Source of the DNA: Cyanobacteriota bacterium
GTDB lineage: Bacteria; Cyanobacteriota; Vampirovibrionia; LMEP-6097
Direction: 5' to 3'
Length of the DNA: 54,950 nucleotides
Assembly (NCBI GenBank): GCA_027618255.1
Contig: JAQCFG010000005.1
Span: 1-54,950 of the forward strand
The stretch's first letter is position 1; the number at the start of each line of letters is the position of its first letter. Under the pieces are notes generated by a model. The model was given only the letters and a program-made list of their open reading frames with translations, made no database searches and was not told the DNA's origin. Position numbers and translations under genes: made by a program. This document shows, piece after piece, positions 12,168-42,254 of this stretch.

Positions 12168-13337
12168 ATGAAATCATCAACCCCAATTCAAGTCACAGAA
12201 ATTGGTTGGATCAACGTAGTGTTTCTCGGCTTGTCCCCACTAGTAGCAGCCTTTGGCTTATGGTATTGGATAAAAACAGCAAGCTTTAATTGGCACACAA
12301 TTGTTCTAACTCTAATTTTTACAACAATAATTCAAGTGAGTATCACTGCAGGATACCATCGTCTATTTTCACATCGATGTTATCAAGCAGCTTGGCCAGT
12401 CAGGTTGTTCTTTTTGATTTTTGGTGCTGCGGCTTTTGAAGGCTCAGCATTAGGCTGGTCACTAGATCATCGTCAACATCATAATCACATTGATGATAAA
12501 GAAAAAGATCCCTCTGCAATTACCAAAGGTTTCTTTTGGGCGCATATGGGTTGGTTATTTTTCAAACCATTGGAAGGTAGACGTAATGAAGACAATGCTG
12601 GTGATCTATTAGAAGATCCTCTTGTAGTATGGCAAAACAAGTATTGGTTAGTTAGCGGTGTCTTGGCTGGTTATATTTTGCCAGCGGTCATTGCCTGGTC
12701 TTGGCATGATTTTTTTGGAGGTCTTTTTATTGCTGGGTTTCTTCGAGCCGTTATTAATCATCATTCCACATTCTTGATCAATTCATTATCACATTGCTTT
12801 GGCAAACAAACCTACTCTGACAAACACAGTGCTCGTGACAATTTACTTACCGCTATTCTCACTTTTGGTGAAGGCTATCATAATTATCATCATGAATTTT
12901 CTTCTGATTACCGTAATGGCCCAAGATTGTTTGATTGGGATCCTACCAAATGGATCATCAAAGGTCTTTCAGTCATTGGTTTAACAAGTCATTTGAAAAT
13001 AATAAGAGAAGAAATCATCGTTCGCAAACGCTGGCAAATGACCGAGAAGACTTTGCTTCAAAAACTACAAAAACACAATCCTGTGATTGTTGATAATGAA
13101 TGGAAAGCTCTCGATCAGCTCAAAGAAAAAATAGAGTCTGCTTTTAAACATTTGACCAATCTAAGGAATCAATATCAAGCTATCAAAAAAGCTGGTGAGA
13201 GTCTACTTGCACAAGAAGTCAAAAGCCTCAATCAAGAAATTGCAAAAGCGCGCGAACAATTCTTTGACTCTCTCAAAGCCTGGCATCATAGTCAAGACAT
13301 CCTGCAAAACAAAGTTTTGCTAGTGATGTCGCTTTAA
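12168..13337 (+). CDS. Acyl-CoA/acyl-lipid desaturase (delta-9 type) with coiled-coil tail
   Basis: Di-iron membrane desaturase that puts a double bond in fatty acyl chains. The three histidine boxes are intact: HRLFSH (about residue 63), HRQHHNH (about 103) and HNYHH (about 240), with membrane segments in pairs between them. The core ends near residue 285. A charged coiled-coil extension of about 100 residues follows, which typical enzymes of this family lack. The final 13-14 residues, ending LVMSL, are encoded by a P1 palindromic repeat, so the original C-terminus was probably altered by its insertion. TATAAT lies close to the start. Confidence 0.9.
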   Translation: MKSSTPIQVTEIGWINVVFLGLSPLVAAFGLWYWIKTASFNWHTIVLTLIFTTIIQVSITAGYHRLFSHRCYQAAWPVRLFFLIFGAAAFEGSALGWSLDHRQHHNHIDDKEKDPSAITKGFFWAHMGWLFFKPLEGRRNEDNAGDLLEDPLVVWQNKYWLVSGVLAGYILPAVIAWSWHDFFGGLFIAGFLRAVINHHSTFLINSLSHCFGKQTYSDKHSARDNLLTAILTFGEGYHNYHHEFSSDYRNGPRLFDWDPTKWIIKGLSVIGLTSHLKIIREEIIVRKRWQMTEKTLLQKLQKHNPVIVDNEWKALDQLKEKIESAFKHLTNLRNQYQAIKKAGESLLAQEVKSLNQEIAKAREQFFDSLKAWHHSQDILQNKVLLVMSL

Positions 13338-13404
13338 AAAAGGTAGCAACCGCAACGAATGTTGCGTTTGCTTTAAGGATAATCCCGACTTTTGCAGTAA
13401 GTCT
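13295..13404 (-). repeat. P1 palindromic repeat, copy A (110 bp)
   Basis: Starts AGAC and ends GTCT. It contains the family's three hairpins, including GCAAAAC/GTTTTGC and the GCAAC...GTTGC arm. Nearly identical to copy B, with one base deleted. It straddles the desaturase stop and runs directly into a DUF423 gene remnant. In the reading frame used by copy B it is open until the deletion shifts the frame. Confidence 0.9.
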
Positions 13405-14388: not shown

Positions 14389-14691
14389 ATGAATGTTGTT
14401 ACAAATTCTGTTATCACTGAGACTCGACCACAAGTCACTAAGCCAGATGACTTCAACAACTCTAGAATGAATTTTCGATCTCAAAACCCACTAGAAGGTT
14501 TTGAGACAACAATCGCGAGCTACGATAATGGCAAAGACTTAGCTCCAATGATCAAATATAATGACCAGCAAACTCGCTTCCAATTCCCCGCTCTCAAGAA
14601 TGGTGCAAAAGCTGAAGATGGTATTTTTTATGAGATAGCAGTGAAAAGTCTATCAAGATCCGATACTGGACAAATCGCTGTCTACAAATAG
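14389..14691 (+). CDS. Small soluble protein of unknown function, stop codon supplied by a repeat
   Basis: 100 residues, polar, no signal peptide or membrane helix, no recognised family (for example PMIKYNDQQTRFQFPAL near the middle). The TAG stop is formed by the junction with P1 repeat copy C (T from the gene, AG from the repeat's AGAC end), so the gene may originally have been longer. It has its own -10 box close to the start. Confidence 0.55.
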   Translation: MNVVTNSVITETRPQVTKPDDFNNSRMNFRSQNPLEGFETTIASYDNGKDLAPMIKYNDQQTRFQFPALKNGAKAEDGIFYEIAVKSLSRSDTGQIAVYK

Positions 14692-14800
14692 ACTTGTTTT
14701 GAAGTCGGAATTATCTCCAAAGGCAACACGCGCATTCAGCGCGGTTGCTACCTTTTATACATTAGACCTGTACATCGAAACTTCGTTTCGAAACAGGTCT
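14690..14800 (+). repeat. P1 palindromic repeat, copy C (111 bp)
   Basis: Same ends and first two hairpins as the other copies (GACTT...AAGTC; GCAACACGCGC...GCGCGGTTGC). The third hairpin belongs to the second subtype shared with copy D (CGAAAC/GTTTCG inside GACCTGT/ACAGGTC). The third hairpin extends into flanking DNA, giving 20-base arms from 14752 to 14808. Read in the copy-B frame it contains a stop, so this copy is not protein-compatible. Confidence 0.9.
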
Positions 14801-17170: not shown

Positions 17171-17652
17171 AACTGTCCAGTGCGCAGCATAACCAAAGTA
17201 CAAGCTTCGATAGTTTCAATACCTGCTGCTGCTAACTTAGAAGCAAGTTCCGGGTTTTCTGTATTGGGGTTGAAAATAACTCGTCTTGGCTTGACTTGAA
17301 TAATTTGCTCAATTAAGCCCGAGGATATTTCAGGATTGACATAAACTGCAATAGTATCTATCTCTGTCTCCACAATAGATTCAATAGACTTACTGCAAAA
17401 GTCGGCATTATCCTTAAAGCAACTCTCAACATTCGTTGCGTTTGCTACCTTTGTTAAAGCGACATCACTAGCAAAACTTTGTTTTGCAAGATGTCTCATA
17501 CTTGGGCAGACATTAATGCCAAGTATTTCTTTTAACTTAGGATGAACCGGAATAGGCTGATAGCCCATCTCAGCAAGTAACTTAACAGCCTGATATGAAT
17601 ATCTATCTGTTTTATTCGAAGCTCCTATTACAACTACTTTTCTAATTTTCAT
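17167..17652 (-). CDS. CoA-binding domain protein (YccU/COG1832-like) carrying a 37-residue repeat insertion
   Basis: Rossmann-fold CoA-binding protein: VVVIGASNKTDRYSY at the start, then GYQPIPVHPKLKEILG, later IDTIAVYVNPE and the C-terminal ASKLAAAGIETIEACTLVML. Known members have about 120-140 residues; this one has 161. Residues 53-89 are encoded exactly by P1 repeat copy B, placed between CPSM and IES, where the family has a short loop (PSL...). Without it the protein is 124 residues with an unbroken domain. The repeat starts on a codon boundary and carries no stop. The gene follows the hydrolase gene with a two-base gap in one operon. Confidence 0.85.
   Translation of the reverse strand: MKIRKVVVIGASNKTDRYSYQAVKLLAEMGYQPIPVHPKLKEILGINVCPSMRHLAKQSFASDVALTKVANATNVESCFKDNADFCSKSIESIVETEIDTIAVYVNPEISSGLIEQIIQVKPRRVIFNPNTENPELASKLAAAGIETIEACTLVMLRTGQF
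17386..17496 (-). repeat. P1 palindromic repeat, copy B (111 bp), inside a coding gene
   Basis: Exactly 111 bases (37 codons), ends AGAC/GTCT, about 90 percent alike to copy A by eye. Read with the gene it encodes a peptide starting RHLAKQSFASDV and ending ADFCSKS. Its three hairpins are GACTT/AAGTC, a GCAAC/GTTGC-type arm and GACATC...GCAAAAC/GTTTTGC...GATGTC. Confidence 0.92.
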
Positions 17653-23329: not shown

Positions 23330-23440
23330 AGACTTACTGCCAAAGTCCCCTTTATCTTCACTAACGGAACTAGTGCTTCGCAGCGTTCCGACCTTTTGTG
23401 TATCGACATCACTAGCAAAACAGAGTTTTGCAGTATGTCT
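23330..23440 (+). repeat. P1 palindromic repeat, copy E (111 bp)
   Basis: Ends AGAC/GTCT, exactly 111 bases, same outer hairpins as copies A and B, but the central arm is replaced by GGAAC/GTTCC. On the minus strand, in the copy-B frame, all 37 codons are open and encode a related peptide (RHTAKLCFASDV at the start, DFGSKS at the end). Confidence 0.88.
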
Positions 23441-23497: not shown

Positions 23498-23608
23498 AGA
23501 CCTGTTTCGAAACACAGTTTCGATGTACAGGTCGCTCAAAAAAAGGTAGCAACCGCGCGGAATGCGCGTGTTGCCTTTGGAGATAATTCCGACTTTCAAA
23601 ACAAGTCT
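23498..23608 (-). repeat. P1 palindromic repeat, copy D (111 bp)
   Basis: Opposite orientation to copy E, 57 bases away, and nearly identical to copy C. Read on the plus strand in the copy-B frame all 37 codons are open (RPVSKHSFDV at the start, DFQNKS at the end). The 57 bases between E and D hold a small palindrome (GAGAAGCTTTCTC) but no gene. Any ORF drawn through E and D comes from the repeats. Confidence 0.9.
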
Positions 23609-24386: not shown

Positions 24387-24923
24387 ATGACCAACAATCC
24401 TCACCAGACTCAAGCATTTGCTCAATTAGTCAAAGTCAATTCATCTAAGTACTACGCAACGGCTTATAGAATGCTTGCAAATAAAACAGAAGCTCAAGAC
24501 ATAGTACAAGAAGCATTTACCAAACTTTGGCAAGCACCACACAAATGGAATCCTCAAAAGCAAACCAAATTTAGCACTTGGTTTTATCGAGTAATCATCA
24601 ATCTCTGTCTTGATTTCAAGAAGAAACGAAGGGCACTACCAATTGCAGAAGGAATGGAATTCCCCGCAGAATCGATAGACTTAGATCGAATAATAGATCA
24701 ACAAGTCAAAGCAAAACAACTAGAAGCTCTCATACAAGCCCTTCCACAAAGACAACAAATCGCACTTAATTTATCTTTTTACGAAGGACTCAGCAATAAA
24801 GAATCAGCAGAAATAATGGAGATCAATATCAAAGCATTAGAATCACTTCTAATGAGAGCCAAAACACAACTCAAATCACAAATCAAGGACAACGACAAAC
24901 AATCGTCATTGCGAGAAGCGTAA
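24387..24923 (+). CDS. ECF-type RNA polymerase sigma factor
   Basis: 178 residues. Region 2 shows YYATAYRMLANKTEAQDIVQEAF and FSTWFYRVIIN; region 4 shows LPQRQQIALNLSFYEGLSNKESAEIM, the sigma-70 region 4 helix-turn-helix. I start at the ATG at 24387 because the frame upstream overlaps the exported-protein gene. The last six residues (SSLREA) and the stop are encoded by a P3 repeat, so the native C-terminus may be lost. The anti-sigma gene follows 35 bases later. Confidence 0.88.
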   Translation: MTNNPHQTQAFAQLVKVNSSKYYATAYRMLANKTEAQDIVQEAFTKLWQAPHKWNPQKQTKFSTWFYRVIINLCLDFKKKRRALPIAEGMEFPAESIDLDRIIDQQVKAKQLEALIQALPQRQQIALNLSFYEGLSNKESAEIMEINIKALESLLMRAKTQLKSQIKDNDKQSSLREA

Positions 24924-24938
24924 GCGACGTGGCAACCC
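24904..24938 (+). repeat. P3 repeat, single arm, at the sigma-factor gene end
   Basis: A CGTCATTGCGAG core continues with AGCGTAAGCGACG and TGGCAACCC. It matches both arms of the palindrome at 30700-30801. It supplies the sigma factor's last codons and TAA stop. Confidence 0.8.
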
Positions 24939-25654: not shown

Positions 25655-26599
25655 TCAAAATTCTTCACGACCTTCTTTAAGTAGCCGACTATTAGACTTG
25701 ATGAAGTCAACCAAGATCGGCGGAAAATCATCATCAGTAACATACAGCTTAAACTGAAGCGCAATGATTTCCAAACGTTCTTTAAAGCTTGGAATATAAT
25801 TCAATTGATAAGTCGGATTGCATTTAGTGACATATTCTTTACATACATACTCAAAGCCCATGCTAATGCGCGGCTCAAGATCACGAGCAGGGGCAGGTCT
25901 TGAACCCCAATGAACTACTGATTCATTCCAAAATAAAATATCACCTGGCTTCGCTGGCAGTGCACGAATATCAGGACGCCTGAACAACCAAGAACAATCT
26001 TCCTCTGTATTATAAGTGGGGTCTCTATTTGCTGGCACCAAATAAATACAACTATTGAGTGGTGTTGATTCAGTCAGAGGAATCCAAAACGAAAGTATCT
26101 TGGGACTGCCATCTTCATAAAGTGCCTTCTTACCTTTGTCACGATGCGGTCCATAGAAACCAGAATAAAGTGAACGAGTCATTAATTCTTTATCAGGTTC
26201 CCCCAATAGCTCTAATTCTTTTTTAGCGTCCACATGCCAAATCCATAAAGTCGGCATTAAACAAGATCCCTCTCCCAAAAAATCTTCAACCACTTGAGCA
26301 AGCCTTGCTTGAAAATACCAAAACTCATCATAAACAAAGGCAAAGACTGCTGGTAAGTTAGCAGTATGCATTTTCATTAAGAGTTTTACAAACTGTTTAA
26401 AATCAAAATCTAATTCTTGAGATAAGTGCGCATAGCCTTCTAGGTCAAATAGCCTAGAATATTCTTGTTTATCTTCGTTAGTTAATTTCAACAAAGGCAC
26501 TTCTATTATTTGGTTCTCAGCGACAATAGACAAATCATTGGCAAAATCTTGCCAAAAATCCTTTGAATTCAAGTTATCTAGCTTGAGTAAATCAACCAC
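25655..26599 (-). CDS. Phytanoyl-CoA dioxygenase (PhyH)-like Fe(II)/2-oxoglutarate oxygenase, paralog 1
   Basis: 314 residues. The double-stranded beta-helix shows the iron triad: H-x-D in GPHRDKG (about residue 152), the distal His in VVHWGSR (about 230) and an Arg for 2-oxoglutarate in EPRIS. Shared with the two paralogs at 29827 and 41424 are FAFVYDEFW, LVPANRD, YNTE and RALPAKPGD. Substrate unknown; no signal peptide. The start is a GTG, with TAAACT ending 6 bases upstream. It is convergent with the metal-sensor gene. Confidence 0.87.
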   Translation of the reverse strand: MVDLLKLDNLNSKDFWQDFANDLSIVAENQIIEVPLLKLTNEDKQEYSRLFDLEGYAHLSQELDFDFKQFVKLLMKMHTANLPAVFAFVYDEFWYFQARLAQVVEDFLGEGSCLMPTLWIWHVDAKKELELLGEPDKELMTRSLYSGFYGPHRDKGKKALYEDGSPKILSFWIPLTESTPLNSCIYLVPANRDPTYNTEEDCSWLFRRPDIRALPAKPGDILFWNESVVHWGSRPAPARDLEPRISMGFEYVCKEYVTKCNPTYQLNYIPSFKERLEIIALQFKLYVTDDDFPPILVDFIKSNSRLLKEGREEF

Positions 26600-29698: not shown

Positions 29699-29720
29699 AT
29701 TGTATCAATAAATAAATGTC

Positions 29721-29797
29721 ACGTCGTAGTATAACGAAGACGGAAAAGACCTCGCAAATGCGGGGTCTTTTTTTTCGTCTTCGCTTTGCTACGACGC
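29721..29797. repeat. P2 palindromic repeat nested around a terminator
   Basis: Arms CGTCGTAG plus CGAAGACG (22-29 and 35-42 of 297xx) pair with CGTCTTCG plus CTACGACG at 29776-29783 and 29789-29796. The inner part is the terminator of the preceding gene. The right arm matches, with two mismatches over 22 bases, a segment inside gshB at 51398-51420. Confidence 0.8.
29744..29775 (+). terminator. Rho-independent terminator after the TM-helix-repeat gene
   Basis: AAAAGACCTCGC, loop AAAT, GCGGGGTC and eight T. It lies inside the open frame upstream of the next gene, which is why the start of that gene is placed at 29827. Confidence 0.9.
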
Positions 29798-29826
29798 AAT
29801 CCAGGGTTCATGCTACCCTAAACTAT

Positions 29827-30720
29827 ATGTTACTTTTAGAGGAAATCGAATCTAAGGAATTCTGGAAAGGCTTTGATCAAGACTTCCATATAGAAGAACT
29901 CGAGGCTGCAACTGCCGCTCAAATTGACTCACTAGAAAGCTCTAAAGAAGTTCTCAAGAAAGAGGGCTACTATCATTATCAAGAAGCTGGACTACAGTTC
30001 AACTACACTGGAGCTTGCACTTTGATCAAAGCTCTAGTACAAATGAAATTACCACCTATCTTTGTACTGGTCTATGATGAGTTTTGGCAATTACAAAACC
30101 AGCTAGGCAATATTGTTTCTAATATTCTTGGTAAAGATGCAAAGCTGATTCCAGCAATTTGGGCTTGGTGCGTGGAGACTAACTCTGAGAACATCGAAAG
30201 GCATGAGAATAATGCAGAGTACAATAGATCTATCTACTCGTCTTTCATAGAACCTCACCGGGACAAAGGTAAAATATCTCTCAACCCTGATGGCTCAGCA
30301 AAATCACTCACCACCTGGATTCCACTCAACGAAGCTAATCCTCTAAATAGCTGCATTCACCTTGTACCTGCTCACAAAGATAGAAACTATAATACTGAGA
30401 CTCAAGACAACTGGAACTTTAACTTTGCTGACATTAGAGCCTTACCAGCTAAGCCTGGTGATGTTTTAATATGGAATCAAGCCGTCTTGCATTGGGGCTC
30501 CATGCCTGCAGCAAGAGATGGTCAGGAGCCACGTATCAGCATTGGTTTTGATTATGTAGCTAAGCCTGAAGGAGTGAACTATCCAATTGATTATATGCCT
30601 AGTTTTGAAGAGCGCCGCTATCTAATTGCCGTGCAAATTATGCAGTATATTCATAAGATGGAGACTAATGAAGCTATTGTTGAGTTTATTAAAAAGTATC
30701 GTCTTTGCGAGGAGCATTAG
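29827..30720 (+). CDS. PhyH-like Fe(II)/2-oxoglutarate oxygenase, paralog 2
   Basis: 297 residues from the ATG at 29827. The frame runs back to 29716, but that part is repeat and terminator sequence. Iron triad: EPHRDKG (about residue 142) and VLHWGSM (about 220), with EPRIS for the co-substrate. It shares FVLVYDEFW, LNSCIHLVPAHKD, YNTE and RALPAKPGD with paralog 1. The last residues (RLCEEH) and the TAG stop come from a P3 repeat arm. Substrate unknown. Confidence 0.87.
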   Translation: MLLLEEIESKEFWKGFDQDFHIEELEAATAAQIDSLESSKEVLKKEGYYHYQEAGLQFNYTGACTLIKALVQMKLPPIFVLVYDEFWQLQNQLGNIVSNILGKDAKLIPAIWAWCVETNSENIERHENNAEYNRSIYSSFIEPHRDKGKISLNPDGSAKSLTTWIPLNEANPLNSCIHLVPAHKDRNYNTETQDNWNFNFADIRALPAKPGDVLIWNQAVLHWGSMPAARDGQEPRISIGFDYVAKPEGVNYPIDYMPSFEERRYLIAVQIMQYIHKMETNEAIVEFIKKYRLCEEH

Positions 30721-30801
30721 CGACGTGGCAATCTAATGCAAGGATTCAAAATATTTCAAGAAACCCTGCATTAGGTTGCTTCGCTAACGCTCGCAATGAC
30801 G
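30700..30801. repeat. P3 palindromic repeat, complete
   Basis: Left arm 30700-30741 (CGTCTTTGCGAGGAGC..., GACGTGGCAATC, TAATGCAAGG) pairs imperfectly with the right arm 30764-30801 (CCCTGCATTA..., GCTCGCAATGACG). It fills the gap between two convergent stops and could act as a two-way transcription barrier. The same arm occurs singly at 24904-24938. Confidence 0.88.
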
Positions 30802-36992: not shown

Positions 36993-37029
36993 GGTTTCAA
37001 AAATAAAGGGAGCTTTGGCAGGAAGTCTA

Positions 37030-37308
37030 ATGAAAATCATTTATACCCCATGGTTTAAAAAAGCTATAAAGAGGTTACAGGTAAATCAAAAAAATGATCT
37101 TGATAATGCTATAGCATTTTTGATAGAAGAGCCTCTTATAGGCGAGCTTAAAGTTGGAGACTTAGCTGGAACAAGAGTACACAAGTTTAAGATGAATAAT
37201 CAGCTTACTCTTTTGGCTTATATTTATTGTGATGAGCAAATTATTCTTACTTTATTAGACCTTGGCTCACATCAAAACTTTTACCGAGATTTAAAAAAGA
37301 AACTCTGA
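37030..37308 (+). CDS. RelE/ParE-superfamily toxin
   Basis: 92 residues with the RelE/ParE fold pattern: MKIIYTPWFKKAIKRL, a Leu-rich helix, then strands GTRVHKFKMNNQLTLLAYIY and IILTLLDLGSHQNFYRDLKK. The C-terminal strand and helix carry the residues usual for this group (LDLGSH-x-NFY-x-DL). It pairs with the ParD-like antitoxin. AGGAAG precedes the ATG at 37030. Its end overlaps the converging mutM gene by 28 bases. Confidence 0.85.
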   Translation: MKIIYTPWFKKAIKRLQVNQKNDLDNAIAFLIEEPLIGELKVGDLAGTRVHKFKMNNQLTLLAYIYCDEQIILTLLDLGSHQNFYRDLKKKL

Positions 37309-39999: not shown

Positions 40000-41427
40000 T
40001 CACAACACTACGTATTCAGTAATCCTCTTTGCCATCCCACCAAAAATAAAATGATGCATAGGCAAAAGCATGTACCAATAGACTCTTCCCCAAAGTCCTC
40101 TTGGTCTAAAACTCGCTTGTTGAATCAAGATTGCTCGACCATCAGCAAGTTCTTTAATTTGAAATTCAAGCCAAGCATCTCCAGGTAATTTCATTTCTGC
40201 AAAAAGAATCAAGTGATGATTAATTTCATCCGCCTTAAGCACTCTCCAGAAATCTAAGGCATCACCAGGCTTGAGCTGGTTATCGCTTCTGCGTCCACGT
40301 CTTAAACCAACACCACCAAACAATCTATCAATAAATCCTCTAAGTCGCCAAGCCCAGTCCATACAATACCAACCGCGCTTGCCGCCAATTAACCAGATAT
40401 TGTTTTTCACTTCTGTTATATCACGATCAAAAATCACTTCTCGCCTATCAATCAAGACTCCATGCTCTGGCACCTTGCACTCATCAAAAGCATTCATAGT
40501 ACTAGTGACCAAAGAATCCTTCCAGCTAGAAATCAGAGTATCACTAGAACTTACTGCTAGTGCACGCTCCAGAGCAATCTCATAAGAATAGGGCTCGATT
40601 GAAACGATTTGATCAATGCCACGATTTTCACAAATCACTTCGTTTACCAAACTTGTAACTAAACTTTTGGCTAAGTTGAAATTGATTGAGGTAATAAAAT
40701 ATAACCAATAAGAAGATAGTCCTATAGAAAGAAATGGCACAGGTATCATAAGTCGCTTAAGCCCGCGCACCTTGGCATAGCCCCGAAGCATCTGTTTGTA
40801 GTTAAGAATATCTGGCCCACCGATATCAAAAACCCTGTCATAGGCTTGTTCTTGTCCAATAACTCCAGTGAGATATTGAATCACATTGGCTATTGCAACA
40901 GGCTGGCAGCGAGTATTGAGCCAACGTGGCGTCAACATCACAGGTAACTTTTCAACTAGGTCTCGTATCATCTCAAAAGACGCGCTACCTGAACCTATAA
41001 TAATTGCAGCTCGCAAAACAGTCAGGTAACAACTTGCTTCAGCCAAAATCTTTTCGACATTGTTACGAGAGCTTAGATGTTTGGATAAATTATCAGCATT
41101 ACTAATACCTCCAAGGTAAATTATTTGCTTAGCATTAGTTTTGTTAATAGCCTCGACAAAGTTAGTCGCTGTTTGAGCTTCAAGCTTGGCAAAATCATCA
41201 GAACCGCCCATTGAATGAACCAAGTAATAAGCTATATCAATTTCTTGAGGCAATTGTACTTCTTTGAGTAAGTCACCTTCGATTAGTTTAACTTCGCCAC
41301 TGAATTTACTATGATCAAAACGACTTGCATTACGCACCAATGCAAATACCTCGTGACTTTGCTTTAGCAAATCAACAATCAACCTCTGTCCGATGTAACC
41401 GTTGGCACCTGTAACTAAAATCCTCAT
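40000..41427 (-). CDS. NAD(P)-binding epimerase/dehydratase-like protein with DUF2867 domain
   Basis: 475 residues. The N-terminal Rossmann domain begins MRILVTGANGYIGQRL (GxxGxxG), with YLVHSMGG where SDR enzymes have their active-site region, as in NmrA-like/complex I NDUFA9-like proteins. The C-terminal 170 residues match DUF2867 (DFWRVL, LILFAEMKLPGDAWLEF, QASFRPRGLWGRVYWYMLLP). The same two-domain protein occurs in many bacteria; no substrate is known. It overlaps the preceding dioxygenase gene by four bases (ATGA), so the two are translationally coupled. Confidence 0.88.
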   Translation of the reverse strand: MRILVTGANGYIGQRLIVDLLKQSHEVFALVRNASRFDHSKFSGEVKLIEGDLLKEVQLPQEIDIAYYLVHSMGGSDDFAKLEAQTATNFVEAINKTNAKQIIYLGGISNADNLSKHLSSRNNVEKILAEASCYLTVLRAAIIIGSGSASFEMIRDLVEKLPVMLTPRWLNTRCQPVAIANVIQYLTGVIGQEQAYDRVFDIGGPDILNYKQMLRGYAKVRGLKRLMIPVPFLSIGLSSYWLYFITSINFNLAKSLVTSLVNEVICENRGIDQIVSIEPYSYEIALERALAVSSSDTLISSWKDSLVTSTMNAFDECKVPEHGVLIDRREVIFDRDITEVKNNIWLIGGKRGWYCMDWAWRLRGFIDRLFGGVGLRRGRRSDNQLKPGDALDFWRVLKADEINHHLILFAEMKLPGDAWLEFQIKELADGRAILIQQASFRPRGLWGRVYWYMLLPMHHFIFGGMAKRITEYVVL

Positions 41428-42254
41428 TTCTTTAATCTCCCTCGAGCAAACTCAATCATCGACTTATCAAAATCATACATGTGAGTATAAGAAACTATTT
41501 GTCTGGCAATTAAATCAAGGCGCTCTTCAAAGCTAGGCAACAATTGAGGTTCAACAATGATATCTTTCATCTGTTTGATGTCGCCGCGCTGATACTCTAG
41601 AGCAATACTGATGCGTGGACTAGTGGCACGCTCAGAAGCTCTTGCACCCCAATGCAAGATTGCATGATTCCAAATCAAGGCGTCACCTGGCTTGGCAGGC
41701 AAAGCGCGAACAGCAGCATATTCAAAATCAAAGCTTGACTCGCGTTCTGTGTTATAAGCTCTATCTCGGTTAGCTGGCACTAAATAAATACAACCGTTCA
41801 TGGGATTAGCTTCGTTGATCGGAATCCAGAGAGTGACAGCCAGTGGTGAACCGTCTTCTTCTAGTGCGTGTCTATCCCTGTCACGATGCGGCTCCCAACC
41901 AGCTTCTTGCTTGCTTGGATCAAGATGCCAAGCCCAAAAAGCAGGGAGCATTTTGTACTGATCGCCCAGAAATCCACTAAGAATATTTTTAAACTTGGCT
42001 TGTAATAACCAAAACTCATCATAAACAAAAGCAAAGACTGGTAATAATTCTTGACTTGCGAGTCTAGAAATTACTGATTCTAGTTTAGTAAAATCAAAAC
42101 CCAAATCTAATTGATTAAGCTGAACGTAGCCCTCCTTAATCATCAGATCTTGAGCTTCTTGACCAAGAGCAGCCACGTGCGCTTTAATTTCAAGCTCTTC
42201 TATATTTAGTTCTGGTGCAAATTGGCACCAAAAATCTTTGGAAACTAAATCCAT
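41424..42254 (-). CDS. PhyH-like Fe(II)/2-oxoglutarate oxygenase, paralog 3
   Basis: 276 residues, the shortest of the three paralogs. Triad: EPHRDRD (about 125) and ILHWGAR (about 203), with SPRIS. Shared blocks are FAFVYDEFW, MNGCIYLVPANRD, YNTE and RALPAKPGD. It lacks the RS-x-YSxF segment that precedes the H-x-D motif in paralogs 1 and 2. Co-transcribed with the SDR/DUF2867 gene and divergent from a cupin, which may point to a small-molecule pathway. TAAAAT ends 6 bases before the ATG. Confidence 0.87.
   Translation of the reverse strand: MDLVSKDFWCQFAPELNIEELEIKAHVAALGQEAQDLMIKEGYVQLNQLDLGFDFTKLESVISRLASQELLPVFAFVYDEFWLLQAKFKNILSGFLGDQYKMLPAFWAWHLDPSKQEAGWEPHRDRDRHALEEDGSPLAVTLWIPINEANPMNGCIYLVPANRDRAYNTERESSFDFEYAAVRALPAKPGDALIWNHAILHWGARASERATSPRISIALEYQRGDIKQMKDIIVEPQLLPSFEERLDLIARQIVSYTHMYDFDKSMIEFARGRLKK

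Follow-up and report, generated by a model that had tools for sequence, protein, structure and literature searches.

A short mobile element, probably of the MITE type, lies in frame in a CoA-binding protein gene and in many other genes of one Candidatus Melainabacteria family

We detected a 111-bp element inserted in frame in a CoA-binding protein gene, within a stretch of 54,950 nucleotides of Candidatus Melainabacteria DNA (the window). With a probability of about 0.87, the insert is a copy of a non-autonomous, MITE-type element that was multiplied in one Candidatus Melainabacteria family and was kept in the gene because its sense frame provides a tolerated loop. The copies constitute an apparently independent new family of protein-coding mobile elements, mechanistically MITEs. 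The window belongs to a metagenome-assembled genome (MAG) of 2.0 Mb in 104 contigs (G000). According to kinship labels, the sister genome G001 (Candidatus Melainabacteria bacterium SI037S4_bin4) is of the same genus, G002 is a third congener and G004 represents another genus of the same family. The element catalogues were built from searches and fetched stretches.

The element begins at nt 157 of the CoA-binding gene, on a codon boundary, and is stop-free, providing residues 53-89 of the product, as an earlier note on this DNA had read from the open reading frame (Table 1). The domain was assigned by Pfam, and the closest solved relative, 3ff4, can be aligned with residues 3-48 and 96-161 of the protein, leaving the part between them unmatched. 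Element-free genes were found in three places: the G005 ortholog, the syntenic G001 gene, which adjoins the same hydrolase gene as in the window, and a G001 paralog. All three lack exactly this stretch, the outcome which the earlier note had named as support for an insertion. In the alignment, the sister protein reads CPS-L-EAVKDTDIDT, and the window protein CPS-M-[37]-I-ESIVETEIDT. The earlier count of 37 added residues is right for the element itself (37 codons); the gene has gained 38 codons, because the 3-bp target codon is now present twice (here as ATG/ATT, in fresher copies as ATT..ATT). The left copy of the duplication differs from ATT by a single changed base.

The structure model of the CoA-binding protein, built on a two-row alignment, is of low confidence (pLDDT 52 overall, about 35-46 in the insert); the insert is not confidently folded in this prediction, and the model is too weak for further use. 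The syntenic G001 ortholog (L042/L111, G001:C91) carries an unrelated deletion of ~27 residues between two NPE motifs and may be non-functional, or rescued by the paralog at G001:C82.

Table 1. Host gene, inserted element and further copies of the family in the window
Feature	Position	Strand	Remark
Host gene, CoA_binding_2 (PF13380) protein, 161 aa	17167..17652	(-)	~123 aa without the insertion
Mobile element of 111 bp, in frame in the host gene	17386..17496	(-)	encodes RHLAKQSFASDVALTKVANATNVESCFKDNADFCSKS
Target-site duplication, right copy	17383..17385	(-)	AAT on +, ATT = Ile codon on gene strand
Target-site duplication, left copy	17497..17499	(-)	CAT on +, ATG = Met on gene strand
5' stem-loop of the element	17461..17495	(-)	GACATC..GATGTC, inner GCAAAAC..GTTTTGC; covariation across copies
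110-bp copy, same P1 subfamily as the CoA-gene copy	13295..13404	(+)	
Diverged full-length copy	14690..14800	(-)	flanks ATT..ATT, frame +0 broken
Full-length copy, main (type A) subfamily	23330..23440	(-)	frame +0 open
Full-length copy, RPVSK subfamily	23498..23608	(+)	flanks ATT..ATT
Fragment, element 3' end	37000..37034	(+)	

The DNA search of the window's own genome detected 45 matches to the 111-bp sequence, of which ~22 are close to full length, with 81-94% identity; the recurrence expected in the earlier note was thus found. A profile of the encoded peptide gave 125 matches in G000, 82 in G001, 23 in G004 and one in G002; the remaining 190 of the 194 genomes sampled from the class had none. 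The viral contigs searched contained no copy of the 5' hairpin.

The element had been described earlier as palindromic. It is not one long palindrome but consists of two stem-loops, the first of them at the 5' end, together with short, imperfect inverted repeats at the termini (AGACATCCTGCAAAA / AGACTTACTGCAAAA). The order of parts is AGACATCCTGCAAAAC-nnn-GTTTTGC-TAGT-GATGTC (the stem-loop), a linker, the second stem-loop, which varies between subfamilies, and the 3' end AGACTTACTGCAAAA, which is the start inverted. The pattern AGACWTNNTGCAAAA, present at both element ends, has 146 matches in G000, and its reversed form, taken as the control, has 9. Covariation supports the 5' stem-loop: 98.4% of cells are paired and four pairs have changed on both sides, which exceeds all slid controls. 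The 5' and 3' halves are shared between subfamilies in different combinations. Between the genes of G000, the most frequent P1 subfamily measures 110 bp, and the copy in the CoA-binding gene is of a 111-bp form. One 110-bp copy in the window (13295-13404) gives the last codons and the stop of a desaturase-like ORF (12168..13337, ending ..HHSQ|DILQNKVLLVMSL*), where the element forms the C-terminal tail and is read in a different frame (+1). The window also contains three paralogs in ~17 kb (25655..26599, 29716..30720 and 41424..42254), which by eye are phytanoyl-CoA-type dioxygenase-like.

Exact 3-bp direct repeats flank 49 of the 102 copies alignable without gaps (AAT 24, ATT 21, AGT 3, ACT 1). 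The consensus of the target-site duplication is ANT, and AAT or ATT accounts for 45 of these 49 cases. The ANT duplications and the empty orthologous sites therefore indicate insertion at a staggered 3-bp cut. The family has the attributes of MITEs: it is short, has a high copy number, has no transposase gene, and possesses both terminal inverted repeats and a target-site duplication. Some copies are recent, because one in G000 (L143, contig C39) and one in G001 (L246, contig C3) are identical over 111 bp with unrelated flanks, while the dS of the compared host genes between these species is about 0.7-0.8; this identity reflects recent spread or exchange between species. The insertion shared by L147 and L170 looks inherited (element dS 0.50).

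In another gene common to the two genomes, elements occupy the same codon (L160, G000:C61, and L179, G001:C57), with the duplications AGT/AGT and AAT/AAT, respectively. The element dS is 0.04 versus 0.73-0.82 in the flanks, and independent insertion at one (hot) site, or insertion followed by conversion, is possible.

The insertion in the CoA-binding gene is one of many. Aligned to orthologs, the fetched long-ORF copies revealed no fewer than 25 genes that carry the element in frame and whose ortholog in a sister species is empty. In ~15 of the filled/empty ortholog pairs the gap is exactly 38 residues, with the duplicated Ile or Asn codon visible, for instance in the GalE-like epimerase (AKH-NIEAV empty, GKHN[37]NIEAV filled) and in the filled form of MsrA (FDKEI[37]IKVPV). 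The hosts identified with Pfam/NCBIfam include MsrA/B, TsaE, MurI, NadC, AroA, PGI, GlyS, PurL, the GalE-like epimerase, a KdsB-like cytidylyltransferase, a uracil methyltransferase, PcrA/UvrD, the glycogen debranching enzyme, ArgJ, RNase HII, and cupin, GNAT, Fic, VTC, AAA, DJ-1/PfpI and M14 peptidase proteins, as well as an ABC permease that holds a nested pair of elements; an aminotransferase of G004 is a further host as judged by its family match. The insertions fall inside the Pfam domains of the host genes; in AroA, the alignment to 3rmt breaks between residues 88 and 92 of 3rmt. Truncated insertions were also found (L152, L155). In the ABC permease gene (L124/L141, G000:C8:5500-5740), one element apparently lies inside the other, still in frame.

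Every complete insertion keeps the downstream frame, because 111 + 3 = 114 bp, i.e., 38 codons. The reading frame used is strongly biased. Four of the six frames of the type-A consensus are open (+0, +1, -0 and -1), and sense +0 is used by ~38 of the 40-41 intragenic copies, a count biased for G000, where frame +0 served to select the loci. The exceptions are L247 (+1), L178 (-0, partial, in a nitroreductase) and possibly L123 (-1, near the N terminus). The G001 sample is nearly unbiased, since all strong copies were fetched (E <= about 2.6e-17), and by hand count 14 of its 15 intragenic copies are in +0 (p ~ 4e-8 under four equal frames; 4e-21 for the looser pooled 40/43). The skew does not come from a lack of open frames, because +0, +1, -0 and -1 are open in 28, 25, 28 and 27 of 30 intergenic type-A copies, respectively. 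Target supply cannot explain the preference of +0 over -0, because ANT on the opposite strand is again ANT. Among the type-A frame peptides, +0 is the only hydrophilic open one (GRAVY -1.22, versus +0.09, +0.26 and +1.01 for the others), and the remaining sense phase reads T|AG at the junction, a TAG stop. The ratio of nonsynonymous to synonymous changes (N/S) is 3.15 in genes and 4.01 in intergenic copies, with a neutral expectation of 3.08; since the genic value is close to neutral, there is no sign of the peptide sequence being preserved. Selective maintenance of +0 in intergenic copies was also considered and rejected, with the other three frames, about as often open there, as the control.

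The simplest account of the frame bias is host selection, with only +0 giving a tolerable loop. A DDE-type transposase acting in trans would make the 3-bp staggered cut, and insertions would arise in all orientations and phases. Where an ANT site has its T in the first position of a codon, the junction would read TAG and the protein would end; the other frames apart from +0 would add hydrophobic peptides and would be selected away. In +0, the hydrophilic, loop-like peptide would be tolerated at surface positions, and the element could persist as translated selfish DNA. As judged from the open frames, the peptide is probably translated; the host proteins would presumably remain active and tolerate the insert as a disordered loop.

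The bias could also originate in insertion or in the evolution of the element, and not only in host selection, if the element is adapted to genes, by its length (111 = 3 x 37) and its hydrophilic sense frame, or has transcribed sense strands as its target. The ratio of sense +0 to antisense -0 (~38 : 1, despite equal supply of ANT targets) fits such adaptation, as do subfamilies that are far apart in DNA and share the open frame and a similar peptide. However, +0 is no better kept open than the other frames in intergenic type-A copies, N/S is near neutral, and the most amplified subfamily in G000, at 110 bp, does not keep the frame, so that we regard this explanation as improbable. A wider proposal is an element with length, termini and sense frame tuned so that a protein hit by insertion would stay functional and full-length, with a standard hydrophilic loop added; conserved coding sequence would be its habitat, it would spread between species of this uncultured lineage, and some host proteins would possibly use the peptide. 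We consider this proposal unlikely, and of the two the less improbable.

Removal of the insert at the RNA level, or skipping by the ribosome (intron-like or byp-like), would restore a protein of normal size. The conserved, covarying 5' stem-loop on the sense strand is in agreement with it, and the hosts include genes expected to be essential, with insertions inside catalytic domains. An open frame would then be needless, yet the in-gene copies are open; copies with a diverged 3' part still have a frame-fitting length, some orthologs retain in-frame partial remnants (L167, L168), and Rfam gave no match to the element, neither to an intron nor to another family. Removal or skipping is therefore very unlikely. 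Wrong joining of repeats into genes during metagenome assembly has to be weighed, since all the genomes are MAGs of about 100 or more contigs; but on both sides of each insertion the sequence is collinear with a single orthologous gene, the target codons are duplicated, the genic copies have private mutations, and two MAGs behave alike at different genes, making such an artefact still less credible. In the least probable explanation, CoA-binding proteins natively have this stretch as a normal loop or domain; in favor of it there is the open frame and nothing more. This explanation was refuted by the empty orthologs; the stretch is also absent from the Pfam and PDB relatives and is repeated elsewhere in the genome. 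Host selection acting on insertions of a MITE-type element is the reading we retain.

We searched for an autonomous partner of the element. The PF01609 (DDE_Tnp_1), PF13340 (DUF4096, IS5-type), PF00665 (rve) and PF01797 (Y1_Tnp) loci examined in these incomplete MAGs did not have matching ends. The same holds for 20 inspected loci with truncated or unpaired element ends, and the truncated ends do not border a transposase. The ANT duplication is reminiscent of the ISL2 subgroup of IS5; the literature search gave no support for this link, and DUF4096 is absent. RAYT-like Y1_Tnp genes are present (5-6 each in G000, G001 and G004, and 2 in G002), and no element is adjacent to them at the eight RAYT loci examined. 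A second repeat type, found in the window at 24897-24935 and 30693-30731, has a CGTCATTGCGAG-like sequence and resembles CGTC-tagged REPs.

The protein-coding mobile repeats described so far come mostly from Alphaproteobacteria that live inside cells (Rickettsia, Wolbachia). Finding this habit in an apparently unrelated family of elements, in a lineage near the cyanobacteria, points to an independent origin of the phenomenon. The literature search, of incomplete coverage, found no report from Melainabacteria, in agreement with the earlier note, which knew of no such element in this kind of organism. Compared with the Rickettsia palindromic elements (RPEs), the new family has target-site duplications that are clean, close species that provide many filled/empty ortholog pairs, and recent copies that are nearly identical. 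It supplies dozens of natural peptide insertions in enzymes, informative about where proteins tolerate inserts and how translated selfish DNA survives selection. In genome annotation, the insert residues should not be taken as domains of the host protein.

RPEs are the closest parallel. PMC2229807 and PMC10969869 (referring to Ogata 2000, 2002) give their length as 105-150 bp and describe the gmk product with an insert as translated and active. Both families consist of short repeats (111 bp here) with stem-loops and terminal inverted repeats, have intergenic as well as in-frame intragenic copies with a conserved peptide frame, and occur in frame in numerous conserved, mutually unrelated genes, the insert being absent from relatives. 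The earlier suggestion of an RPE-like selfish insertion stands as to the way of working (empty sites, duplications, dozens of parallels), but not as to homology: neither the peptide nor the genic copy had an NCBIfam match at E <= 1. NCBIfam includes RPE models. The element differs from RPEs in its host phylum (Candidatus Melainabacteria, not Rickettsiales), in not being a single long palindrome and in its clear target-site duplication (ANT), which is given as '?' for RPEs (PMC2229807). RNA genes, those for tmRNA and RNase P RNA, are among the sites of RPEs. In the 40 loci scanned here, no Melainabacteria copy overlapped an RNA gene.

The Wolbachia palindromic elements (Ogata 2005, as cited in PMC2229807) are likewise protein-coding palindromic repeats inside genes, in an alphaproteobacterial host. 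REP/BIME sequences mobilized with RAYT (IS200/IS605-like Y1_Tnp) are also dispersed hairpins, and RAYT-like genes exist in the genomes studied here; however, neither the duplications of 3 bp nor the terminal inverted repeats suit an HUH enzyme. HUH enzymes are not known to make a target duplication. The enterobacterial ERIC/RU-1, RU-2/YPAL and RU-3 elements and the 107-bp Correia elements are MITEs whose ORFs are joined in frame to those of the host, but they are mainly intergenic and several have TA termini (PMC2229807), whereas the Melainabacteria element has many insertions in the middle of conserved enzymes and uses one frame.
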